This document shows, in pieces, positions 59,838-64,000 of a DNA stretch of 64,000 nucleotides. The DNA lies in contig MKWI01000023.1 in the NCBI GenBank assembly GCA_001899715.1, forward strand, positions 1-64,000. The letters run 5' to 3'. The position numbers were made by a program, and so were the translations under genes. The notes under the pieces are model-generated. The model worked only from the letters and a program-made list of their open reading frames with translations, ran no database searches and had not been told where the DNA came from. The stretch's first letter is position 1. Each line of letters starts with the position of its first letter. The DNA is from Sphingobium sp. 66-54. Its GTDB lineage: Bacteria > Pseudomonadota > Alphaproteobacteria > Sphingomonadales > Sphingomonadaceae.

Positions 59838-59892
59838 GCGCCCGTAGCTCAGCTGGATAGAGCATTCGCCTTCTAAGCTGAGGGTCTGCGTG
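59838..59892 (+). pseudogene. truncated tRNA-Arg (5' ~55 nt only; T-arm and 3' acceptor missing)
   Basis: GCGCCCGTAGCTCAGCTGGATAGAGCATTCGCCTTCTAAGCTGAGGGTCTGCGTG diverges before any TTCGAATC; anticodon loop CTTCTAA intact. Confidence 0.75.
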
Positions 59893-59964
59893 GCAGAACA
59901 TGTGGGAGGACTGTAGTTTAGGCATTGCTGGCCGGGAAGCGAACCGTCTAGCGAACCGTGTTGT

Positions 59965-60041
59965 GGCCCCGTAGCTCAGCTGGATAGAGCATCGGTCTTC
60001 TAAACCGATTGTCGCGTGTTCGAATCACGCCGGGGTCACCA
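59965..60041 (+). tRNA. tRNA-Arg(TCT), CCA encoded
   Basis: GGCCCCG..GAGC..CTTCTAA loop..GCGTGTTCGAATCACGC-CGGGGTC-A-CCA. Confidence 0.93.
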
Positions 60042-60147
60042 TCCACGGAGCCGATAAGAAGGATGTGGGATTGCCGCTACAAAATTTGCCGATAGAAACC
60101 ATATGTAAGAGATTCGTCGTTACGCTGTTTGGATTGTGAGGATAGGA

Positions 60148-60879
60148 ATGGAGTTTCACGCAGACAGCATTCAGGCAGTGCTGTTCCTTGCGCCCAGTCA
60201 GCGCCAAGACGACGCGCTAAAGCTATGGGGTGAGTTGTTTCCGAATGATTCCCCCGACGGGTTCCAGCGTTTTAATGCATCACCAGCTCTAAATTCATCA
60301 GCACATGGGGACCGGCAAGGATTTCAGATAACAGTCAATGCCCAGGTTGGCCGGATTGACGTAATACTCGCTCATTCACCGCAGGCGCTACCCAGTGACG
60401 CCGGGCCTCCCCGCATCGCAGACGTTGCAGGAGCTTCTGCAAAGGCTGTCGAATTGCTCAAGCGGCTCGCCTCTGGGCTAAGGGTTGTCCGAGCAGCTAT
60501 CGTTTTTGAGTTAGCAAAAACCGTTTCCAAAGGTAGCGAATCATCCGAGATTTTGAAAAATCTTCCGGGTTATCCGCTTCCTGAAAATGCGACAGACGTC
60601 AACGTCCAATTTAACTCGCGTAAGAATTTTGCCTTTTCGGAAGACAGGGAAATGAACCGTCTCTGCGCTTGGTCGTCTGGGCAAGTTGGCTTTATCATGA
60701 ACCCGCAACTTCAAGGCAGCAACGTCATGATGATGACCCCGTTCGTAGGCTTCAAAATTGACGTAAACAGTGCGCCTCAAATGCCATTACCGCCTGATGG
60801 GGTACATCAAGCTATCGATGAGCTTGCGGCGGAAGCCTTAGCGATCGCAAGCGAAGGGATAACAAGGTTTCAGTCATGA
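60148..60879 (+). CDS. hypothetical protein, island operon gene 1
   Basis: Open frame with RBS-like AGGATAGGA; overlaps gene 2 by 4 nt; no family recognised. Confidence 0.75.
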   Translation: MEFHADSIQAVLFLAPSQRQDDALKLWGELFPNDSPDGFQRFNASPALNSSAHGDRQGFQITVNAQVGRIDVILAHSPQALPSDAGPPRIADVAGASAKAVELLKRLASGLRVVRAAIVFELAKTVSKGSESSEILKNLPGYPLPENATDVNVQFNSRKNFAFSEDREMNRLCAWSSGQVGFIMNPQLQGSNVMMMTPFVGFKIDVNSAPQMPLPPDGVHQAIDELAAEALAIASEGITRFQS

Positions 60880-61478
60880 CTCAAACCGTTTTAGGTAACC
60901 CGCTTGAAGATGTGTGGTGGAACAGTAGTTCTAGCTCCAGCGAAACTATTGAGAAGTATCGCAGCCATATTCATGATATCATGCTGAATACGCAGCTTGA
61001 TGTTGAGAATTTTGTAAGTAGCTTCACCACTCACAAGAAAATTGTAACCGAGGGCACAAGTACATCCGAAAATATTCGGCCTTTATACTATGTTAAATTT
61101 CCACGATCTTTTTCGTTTTCATCACCAAATTCATCGAGCAACATGCTCGGCACCGTTGAAGAATATTACAATAAGGTAGAGGTTCAATTGAACCTTCTTT
61201 CCGCTTCTGATGAGGCCGATGATGATGGAGTGGAACAGGGGGCGATAGATTCCGCATTAGTCTTAGTGGAGCAATTGAAGCGACATAATCTGGCTCCCCC
61301 CGCTTTGTCTTGGCACGGTGGAGATGCCGTAGTAATGCTATGGGCACTCGGTGATACTACATATGCTATTACCGTAACCGACGGCGAAATTGGATATGTA
61401 GTTAGACGAAACCGTAAGGCTATCAGAATGGCTGATTCAATTAAGCTAGACACGTTCAAATTGGCTGACCTTCGCTGA
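60876..61478 (+). CDS. hypothetical protein, island operon gene 2
   Basis: ATGA overlap with gene 1; Ser-rich N-terminal third; no family recognised. Confidence 0.75.
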   Translation: MTQTVLGNPLEDVWWNSSSSSSETIEKYRSHIHDIMLNTQLDVENFVSSFTTHKKIVTEGTSTSENIRPLYYVKFPRSFSFSSPNSSSNMLGTVEEYYNKVEVQLNLLSASDEADDDGVEQGAIDSALVLVEQLKRHNLAPPALSWHGGDAVVMLWALGDTTYAITVTDGEIGYVVRRNRKAIRMADSIKLDTFKLADLR

Positions 61479-61481
61479 TCC

Positions 61482-62108
61482 ATGCCTGTTGAAATAACGG
61501 ACGCAGACGAAATCTCTCGCTGCATTATTTTTGATCGTGCGTTCGATCAAGATTTGCACGTCGATGAAATGTTGTGGCGCTTTGGCCAAACCCAGGCGGA
61601 TGGTGCTTCGCACGAATCAGCGGTCCTCAGACGGCTAGCTCCCCTCGCAGAGGACGTACACCGAATAGGTTGTGCTATCGCTGCCAAGCAAAACGCAAGA
61701 AAGAACGAACCACAGCCTGGCCCAAATCGTCGATATTACTGCGGTTTTCGAACAGCATCTTATGCCTCACTGCCAAAGGACGGGGAAGGTTATTTGATTA
61801 GCTTCACAAACGACGGAGAAGACGGAGAAGAGGCGCACGTGGACGTAGCTTTGACCGTTACGGTTGATGGCAAAAGCGCTAAGGCTAATACTCGTACGAA
61901 TGCTGGCTTAGCATTAGCTGAACATTTTGGTCCTCCTGCGCCGCATCGCTGCGCCTGCGATGAAGTGGACGAATGTCATCCATTTTCTCTTTGGGGCGAA
62001 CAATGTTTGTTTACTGGTTTACGGGACCGATGGCCGAGCCTTCAATTGCTAGAGGTTCCAAACCAAATTGCCCCAGACGAGGGTGATCAACCTCGTCTGT
62101 TGCAGTGA
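61482..62108 (+). CDS. hypothetical protein, island operon gene 3, Cys cluster near C-terminus
   Basis: Starts 3 nt after gene 2; HRCACDEVDECHPFSLWGEQC segment; no family recognised. Confidence 0.75.
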   Translation: MPVEITDADEISRCIIFDRAFDQDLHVDEMLWRFGQTQADGASHESAVLRRLAPLAEDVHRIGCAIAAKQNARKNEPQPGPNRRYYCGFRTASYASLPKDGEGYLISFTNDGEDGEEAHVDVALTVTVDGKSAKANTRTNAGLALAEHFGPPAPHRCACDEVDECHPFSLWGEQCLFTGLRDRWPSLQLLEVPNQIAPDEGDQPRLLQ

Positions 62109-62139
62109 AGTTCAGGCTCCGCGTTTAAGCGCTCAACTA

Positions 62140-62505
62140 TCACGGCTCGAACGGGCTAACACTTCGGCCCCGGCACCCGTCGCACAGGCGGTTGCCGGGG
62201 CCTTCGCTATGGAAAGGCTGGCGGCAGCGCAGACACGGCCGAACCTTGGGTTGCCGGGGCGGCTCCTCAGCGCCCCGGCCGGTGTCCACGTCAGATATGT
62301 CAGACTGGTGCACCGTTCGCTGTGGCAGCGGCAGATCGAAGACGATGCTGCCCCGATACACGCGGTCGTAGATATTGCTCCGGTCATTGTGGCGACCGCC
62401 CAGCGCGGTGACCGCCTCTTCCAACGTCATGCCGACGCGCAGAGAGGCCCAGCGACTACCGCCGGTAGGCTTGAACCGGAGCTGGGTAATGCGCGTGTCG
62501 ATCAT
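62140..62505 (-). CDS. phage-like hypothetical protein with C-terminal zinc ribbon
   Basis: CLRCRQPFHSEGPGNRLCDGCRG (CxxC-N13-CxxC). Confidence 0.7.
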   Translation of the reverse strand: MIDTRITQLRFKPTGGSRWASLRVGMTLEEAVTALGGRHNDRSNIYDRVYRGSIVFDLPLPQRTVHQSDISDVDTGRGAEEPPRQPKVRPCLRCRQPFHSEGPGNRLCDGCRGRSVSPFEP

Positions 62506-62639
62506 CGCGGCGGCCGGGGATTGGTGCCCTTCGCCGGGGGAGTGCCAGTCTTGCGGGGCGGCGGCACCGTTCCCGGCCCCTGTGGCGATTTCACCTGGCG
62601 GGGTGGCGTATAGCGCTGTGGTCGCGGGGGACGCATCAT
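62502..62639 (-). CDS. small proline-rich hypothetical protein
   Basis: MMRPPRPQRYTPPRQVKSPQGPGTVPPPRKTGTPPAKGTNPRPPR; 4-nt overlaps on both sides. Confidence 0.5.
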   Translation of the reverse strand: MMRPPRPQRYTPPRQVKSPQGPGTVPPPRKTGTPPAKGTNPRPPR

Positions 62640-62851
62640 GGCTGTCCTTCCTCCCGCCGCTGTTCCTTCGCCGCTGCCAGCGCCGTCCGGTATTCCGCCA
62701 TGTCGCCGGGCAACAGGCGCTTCAACGCCCATTGCGGCGGGTCGAACTTGCCCCGGATGGACAACATGCACATGCGGAATGCATCGTCGCGCTGCTTCTT
62801 GGCGGCAGAGCGCCGGGCGTTGGCGCTCATCCTCGCGTGATAGCTACTCAC
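62636..62851 (-). CDS. small basic hypothetical protein
   Basis: 4-nt overlap with 62848 gene; same-strand phage-like block. Confidence 0.6.
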   Translation of the reverse strand: MSSYHARMSANARRSAAKKQRDDAFRMCMLSIRGKFDPPQWALKRLLPGDMAEYRTALAAAKEQRREEGQP

Positions 62852-63675
62852 CGGCCCGTTCCTTCCAGCGCCTTGATGCTCTTGGCGGCCTTCGCCGCCG
62901 GGGCGTTCCGCAACGCGATCACATCGCCGTAGCGCTTCACCAAGGCGGAGCCGGACGCGGTGACGTGCCTGATCGCCGCATCGGTTGCCGAAAGCTGGGC
63001 ATCATCGACCGGGGCGAACTTGGCGGCCGCGCGCGCCCGGAGCGTGGTGTGGGCTTCGGGGGCAAACCCAGAGAGGAACGGCTGGGCATGGAGCACCGCC
63101 GCCACGGTCGGGATATCGCCCGTGTCGATAGCCTGCGCCACGAACTTCATCCGCTCGTCGGGCTTCTTCATGGCCTTGATATGCGAGCGCACCTCAGCCG
63201 CCAGGGCGAGCCCTTCGGGCGTCTTGCGCGCCGGGTGGTCGAGCGCCGTTGCGACGCGCTGTTCCAGCGTGGTGCGGTAGCCTTCGAGCTCCTTCAACCG
63301 CCGGTCGATGGCCGGGCCGACGCGGGCGAACGCCTGTTCGGCGGCGACGATGAACTCTTCCGCATCCACGACGCGGGTGGGCTTGCCGTTCTTCATCCGC
63401 ACATTGTCGCTGTAGTCGGTACGACCGCCCTTTTCGGCGGCATACTGGCGACGGCGGGCGGGATCGGCGATTGCCTGCAAGTCGCGCTCGGCATCGTTCA
63501 TGCGGCCGAACAGGTCGTAGCAGAGGCGCAAGCTCTCCCGCGCGGCGGCAAGGACGTTGGTGCCCAGGGTGCCCTCCACGTCGAGCGGCTCTCCGATACC
63601 CAGCAGGCTGTCGGGGTGGAGGCCGAGCGGCACATCGGGCCGGATCGGGGTGCTGTCATCAATCAAACGGGGCAT
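62848..63675 (-). CDS. phage-associated hypothetical protein (275 aa)
   Basis: Directly downstream of the terminase; helical, Ala-rich. Confidence 0.7.
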   Translation of the reverse strand: MPRLIDDSTPIRPDVPLGLHPDSLLGIGEPLDVEGTLGTNVLAAARESLRLCYDLFGRMNDAERDLQAIADPARRRQYAAEKGGRTDYSDNVRMKNGKPTRVVDAEEFIVAAEQAFARVGPAIDRRLKELEGYRTTLEQRVATALDHPARKTPEGLALAAEVRSHIKAMKKPDERMKFVAQAIDTGDIPTVAAVLHAQPFLSGFAPEAHTTLRARAAAKFAPVDDAQLSATDAAIRHVTASGSALVKRYGDVIALRNAPAAKAAKSIKALEGTGR

Positions 63676-63685
63676 GGTTGGTCTC

Positions 63686-64000
63686 CTAGAAATGGCCAGC
63701 GGTGATCCGCCCGGACGTTGCCAGCATCACGGGGGAATTGACGAGGTATCGGATGGCGTCGGCCGCATGGTCGGCGGCGGTCGTGTCCACGTCCTCAAGG
63801 CGCACATCGTCGCGCGGGAGGAGCGGCAGGGTTTCGAGGGCGTAGCGGCACCGCTCGGACAGCCAGAGGCCGGGCGTGTCGGGGTCGCCGTCGCGGGCGG
63901 CGGCCATCATGGCCTTCACCTTCACCCAGCCGGAAATTCGGTCCTTGCGAGGCTTCACCAGGTGCAGGCCGTATTTCGCAAGCTGCTCAATCAGCGTGTC
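63686..64000 (-). CDS. phage terminase large subunit, C-terminal part (5' end beyond window)
   Basis: WLSERCRYALETLPLLPRDDVRLEDVDTTAADHAADAIRYLV is the conserved TerL C-terminal nuclease segment; frame stays open to base 64000 (DTLIEQLAKYGLHLVKPRKDR). Confidence 0.85.
   Translation of the reverse strand, partial: DTLIEQLAKYGLHLVKPRKDRISGWVKVKAMMAAARDGDPDTPGLWLSERCRYALETLPLLPRDDVRLEDVDTTAADHAADAIRYLVNSPVMLATSGRITAGHF

Follow-up and report, generated by a model that had tools for sequence, protein, structure and literature searches.

A three-gene operon carried by a tRNA-Arg(UCU) satellite-like element of Sphingobium sp. 66-54 most likely represents a diverged branch of the TIGR04255-led operons

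Introduction

TIGR04255 is an NCBIfam family that has a name ("sporadic") without a described function, and no mention of it was found in the open-access literature that we searched. In public records, it is annotated in Pseudomonadota, Actinomycetota, Cyanobacteriota, and Deinococcota, and on plasmids of Mycobacterium, Crinalium, Vibrio, and Thermus the annotated TIGR04255 genes are followed by at least one small hypothetical gene. Many of the TIGR04255 loci that we extracted are three-gene operons with near-zero spacing. Another system to be considered is PDC-M32, a candidate of the PADLOC collection; the name PDC-M32A also appears in Sinorhizobium prophages (PMC12429752).

With regard to mobile elements, a PICI-like gene set comprises an integrase, an AlpA-type regulator, a primase-helicase, and a small terminase, without capsid or tail genes. 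Among islands inserted in tRNA genes, restoration of the split tRNA gene from the island's own sequence is the norm (PMC4383910).

Here, we analyze an operon of three short genes found at positions 60148–62108 of a 64-kb window from Sphingobium sp. 66-54 (the window being the whole stretch of DNA that was analyzed), and compare it with these systems.

Results

Gene 1 (60148..60879; 243 aa), gene 2 (60876..61478; 200 aa), and gene 3 (61482..62108; 208 aa) lie in a row on the plus strand, with an ATGA overlap of 4 nt between the first two and a gap of 3 nt between the last two. This is the arrangement given in the preliminary description of the locus, in which the 244 residues stated for protein 1 had included the stop codon. 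The base composition, reported there to be unlike that of the flanks, is indeed so: GC contents of genes 1, 2, and 3 are 0.516, 0.436, and 0.510, respectively, versus 0.64 for the 64-kb window, and GC3 is 0.41–0.50 in the trio versus 0.85–0.86 in flanking genes. Promoter- and terminator-like sites were found only in the number expected by chance.

A single frame of such length is within the reach of chance (the longest frame in 500 Markov-1 shuffles had 234 codons, with a mean of 131), but the tandem of three frames, taken together with their conservation, goes beyond it. Among 301 sampled genomes of the same family, a homolog of protein 1 was found in one other genome (G127), which belongs to a different genus. 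In this genome, an intact trio occurs in the same gene order, with identities to the window of 46% for protein 1, 47% for protein 2, and 65–66% for protein 3; the C-terminal half of protein 2 is near-invariant between both trios. About 67–69% of third codon positions differ between the window and G127, versus 23–42% of first and second positions, so that all three genes are under purifying selection. The trio is a real operon, and its coding status follows from the intact homologous trio in another genus and from nucleotide differences that fall mostly at third codon positions. It is also conserved as a unit, and the question whether it recurs in other islands, raised previously, can be answered: the G127 trio also lies in an island, with a tRNA-Lys upstream, a tyrosine integrase, and a 22-bp repeat of the tRNA-Lys 3' end 9 kb downstream.

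In Sphingobium sp. 66-54, the native tRNA-Arg(UCU) gene is split. Its 5' half (59838..59878, plus strand) is cut at the anticodon loop, marks the left end of an element, and matches the intact tRNA-Arg of the congener G1220 at 100% over 41 bp, and the 3' half starts at contig position 70558 (L002:12559), 10,688 bp away and outside the window. A 9-bp crossover core, CTTCTAAGC (59870–59878, plus strand), is common to both halves and lies in the anticodon loop. In congeners, the gene is intact at the corresponding site. The element occupies 59879..64000 of the window and continues to contig position 70557, having the split tRNA at both ends and GCGAACCGT repeats near them. Two of these repeats are located at 59939..59959 (starting at 59939 and 59951, plus strand) and the matching pair at 70407 and 70429, whereas a direct search of the 16-kb stretch gave one inverse copy, at 65519; the paired repeats may be arm sites of the integrase. 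The element also brings a complete replacement tRNA-Arg(TCT) gene (59965..60041, plus strand), detected by ARAGORN, which is the only intact one in the assembly by pattern search. To our knowledge, it is less usual for an island to carry a whole substitute tRNA gene.

As described before, the trio stands between this tRNA-Arg and an opposite-strand block, beyond 62140, with small and large terminase genes. Within the window, the minus strand of the element contains two ORFs without a Pfam match, of 121 aa (62140..62505) and 275 aa (62848..63675), followed by the C-terminal part of the large terminase subunit (63686..64000; Terminase_6N, E=5.5e-11), whose gene runs beyond the window (L002:5687-7072). 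Taken as a whole, the element encodes a tyrosine integrase, an AlpA-type HTH protein, a RepB-primase/DUF5906/VapE-like protein, a small terminase (called from weak Pfam matches), the large terminase, and unmatched ORFs; no capsid or tail genes were recognized among the element ORFs examined. The PICI-like gene set is thus present. A full prophage was rejected because of the size of 10.7 kb and the lack of recognized structural genes. Judging from its ends and gene content, we regard the element as satellite-like, apparently inserted into tRNA-Arg(UCU), at the anticodon loop, by tyrosine recombination and together with its substitute tRNA. The earlier placement of the trio at the edge of a phage therefore holds in that an integrated phage-like element carries the operon as cargo at its edge, but this element is not a full prophage.

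In two congeners (L080:391-595 and L081:19018-19122), the replacement tRNA-Arg is retained with similar flanks, in one of them along with the native 5' fragment, and no recognizable element genes are found beside it. These sites suggest relics of similar elements, as if the substitute tRNA had outlived the element.

Searches of Pfam, NCBIfam, PADLOC, and PHROGs placed none of the three window proteins in a family, which upholds the previous statement that they show no recognized motif. No PADLOC 2.0.0 model matched the window proteins up to E=10, and the trios of G127 and of a further genome (G497, see below) gave nothing above chance (E=1). Matches of the window proteins to DUF5462, MarC, and a terminase small subunit (all with E>0.04) were dismissed as chance. 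In the plasmid and phage collections, window proteins 1 and 3 had no relatives and the DNA of the trio had no match, the plasmid collection contained no relative of window protein 2, and the one completed scan of the genome-contig collection was empty. For proteins 1 and 3, AlphaFold single-sequence modeling gave a mean pLDDT of 35, and searches against solved structures returned chance-level matches only.

When 387 genomes of the class sample were searched with a profile of protein 3, one weak relative was found, in G497 (25.4 bits, E=1.3e-5 for that genome), a score that is moderate if taken alone. This relative is precisely the third gene of an operon of three that begins with TIGR04255 (79.9 bits; cut-off 30), and phmmer directly connects the third proteins of the window, G127, and G497 (24.5 bits). 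Another match, to a LysR-type protein of G424 (L006), covered only 49 positions of the profile and was set aside as a different kind of protein. TIGR04255 itself was present in 6 of 151 genomes of the same family and in 28 of 349 genomes of the phylum. The same search of the genome of Sphingobium sp. 66-54 gave nothing, and neither protein 1 nor its G127 homolog matched the TIGR04255 model at its cut-off of 30 bits.

Alignments of the window and G127 proteins were then compared with the three positional families of TIGR04255 operons by profile–profile comparison (hhalign). For the same position, P was 0.0058 (1 vs. 1), 5.5e-7 (2 vs. 2), and 4.1e-4 (3 vs. 3), whereas all six mismatched pairs of positions gave P of 0.08 or above. 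A broader family set gave 0.0086, 1.6e-4, and 0.0048 for positions 1, 2, and 3, respectively. The observed score was not reached at any position in 150 column shuffles, with a tiny margin at position 1 (24.1 vs. 23.6). For the latter position, a third alignment gave no support (P=0.19), and the support for protein 1 is alignment-dependent. Since support is weak at position 1 and stronger at positions 2 and 3, we hold protein 3, on the basis of these scores, to be related to the third gene of TIGR04255 operons; protein 2 is probably related, less directly, to their middle protein; and protein 1 is positionally equivalent to TIGR04255, its homology being suggestive and unproven.

The trio shares several features with these operons. 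Its three genes are on one strand in the order 1-2-3, overlapping or nearly so, and the third protein is of the R ... H-motif kind. The "GWDGYGA ... LEW" domain of the middle proteins is shared by protein 2 at the profile level, with the WDGY motif missing and the later P...W segment kept. The link to the TIGR04255 operon family is fairly firm, and a three-gene operon of wide but sporadic occurrence is most likely the type from which the trio has diverged as a branch. What had been proposed as an undescribed system is therefore, as far as the operon type is concerned, still undescribed, but it is not isolated, given the relationships of protein 3 and, less directly, of protein 2.

In protein 3, the candidate effector, R13 and H119 are, along with the start Met, the invariant positions among 11 sequences. 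The Cys cluster of this protein (HRCACDEVDEC), for which a metal-binding role had been suggested, is only partly kept in the G127 homolog (HQCEVDYEDAQ), and metal binding was rejected as unsupported because the cluster is not conserved.

The third genes of TIGR04255 operons cluster separately in phmmer comparisons, with at least four kinds after a constant first gene. The H-motif kind comprises several subclusters, one of which holds the window, G127, and G497. Besides it, there are a short kind with SxxCD, a long kind with SxxC, in some members of which the second gene looks by eye like a helix-turn-helix protein, and a GLTCATF kind with the motif CHLAWH (L011, L018, and L052), reminiscent of a cysteine peptidase on visual inspection. 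Such a pattern, in which the first gene stays constant and the third is exchanged, would be expected of a sensor plus effectors.

On the Vibrio parahaemolyticus plasmid CP063527.1 (L084:158-2105), TIGR04255 is followed by a hypothetical gene and then by one with a zeta toxin family annotation. At another locus (L021:1483-3721), the TIGR04255 gene precedes a short ORF and a MazF/PemK-like ORF, after which a large DNA-methyltransferase-like ORF begins, as judged by eye.

In 6 of 20 TIGR04255 operon neighborhoods (L051, L052, L054, L059, L062, and L064), the operon was found at most 2 kb downstream of a tRNA on the same strand. Approximately 0.25–0.5 cases were expected (P of 1e-7 to 7e-6, or 2e-4 when the tRNA density of the sampled regions is used), P values that are indicative, since the distance of 2 kb was picked after seeing the data. 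In two of these neighborhoods (L051 and L059), a duplicated tRNA 3' end bounds an island. TIGR04255 operons are often found shortly after a tRNA gene or near an integrase, and several stand alone among housekeeping genes. The PADLOC families among 94 neighbor proteins, in a raw tally without a matched control, included AbiEi/AbiEii, MADS, type I specificity, and DISARM DrmD. In 5 of 13 genomes tested, the middle-protein domain matches the C-terminal part of PDC-M32A; no PDC-M32B partner was found among 49 operon proteins scanned.

A pattern like split-and-replace was seen in another genome, at L065:8352-8560, where an extra copy of the first 38 nt of a tRNA-Thr, ending in the anticodon loop, lies ~100 bp upstream of the gene. 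It was not counted as the same integration mode, because the operon there lies upstream of the tRNA.

Discussion

The operon that we describe here is best read as mobile cargo, probably of an anti-phage or toxin–antitoxin-like nature. Our preferred reading, which we hold tentatively and at slightly less than an even chance, is that of a far-diverged TIGR04255-type operon, carried as cargo by the satellite-like element in tRNA-Arg(UCU), with a function in intracellular immunity against phages or rival elements. Protein 1 would sense or bind a trigger, protein 2 would couple or restrain, and protein 3 would act as the effector; sensing, coupling, effector action, and defense are all roles that we infer. 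Defense is the leading reading because of the mobility of these operons, their sporadic spread, the exchangeable third genes, and the neighbors. It is possible, if doubtful, that operons with TIGR04255 in the first position constitute an undescribed modular immune system, in which the constant first protein recognizes the invader and at least four unrelated third-gene effectors are plugged in, the window trio being too diverged for current annotation and defense finders.

The main rival of the defense reading is a toxin–antitoxin-like stabilization, in which protein 3 would be toxic, protein 1 and/or protein 2 would neutralize it, and the module would maintain the element rather than fight phages. 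The tight translational coupling of the trio and its presence on a mobile element agree with such a role, as does the zeta toxin family gene that stands second after TIGR04255 on the Vibrio plasmid, but that gene may have its own antitoxin just upstream and the trio has three genes, not two; we consider this explanation unlikely. Because it adjoins the terminase genes at the edge of the element, the trio might instead serve the satellite-like element itself, for instance by hampering a helper phage in such a way that packaging favors the element. This seems quite improbable, considering that related operons are also found in many places that lack such elements, among them plasmids and isolated sites between housekeeping genes, and that the strand and composition of the trio differ from those of the rest of the element. 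Finally, none of the three proteins has a known function, which would be in line with an accessory role, in stress response or metabolism for example, that has nothing to do with mobile elements and travels on islands by chance. Such a role is improbable as well: the sporadic spread (this branch in 2 of 301 genomes of the same family, TIGR04255 in 6 of 151 and 28 of 349), the repeated location in islands, and the exchange of third genes would all be unusual for metabolic genes.

Given the operon architecture, the third-gene exchange, and the location in tRNA islands, TIGR04255 becomes a system that can be tested rather than a bare family name, and the window trio is evidence of further members beyond the present models. 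If the immunity reading is true, a modular class has been missed.

Compared with known systems, the similarity to PDC-M32 is restricted to the middle protein of several TIGR04255 operons, which matches approximately positions 257–363 of the 375-position PDC-M32A model, whereas window protein 2 has no match to any PADLOC model. The host element resembles satellites of the PICI kind in its small size, tyrosine integrase, AlpA-type regulator, primase-helicase, and small terminase, as well as in having cargo near one end and integrating at a tRNA. It differs from them in also carrying a large terminase and in its tRNA site, where the crossover falls in the anticodon loop and a whole replacement tRNA is supplied, rather than the 3' end being restored. 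The trio, in turn, differs from the TIGR04255-led operons in that window protein 1 is under the model threshold, window protein 2 is without the WDGY motif, and the proteins are longer or rearranged. These operons have in common with it three short genes, their order and near-zero spacing, a sporadic and mobile occurrence, and a relationship, position by position, of proteins 3 and 2.
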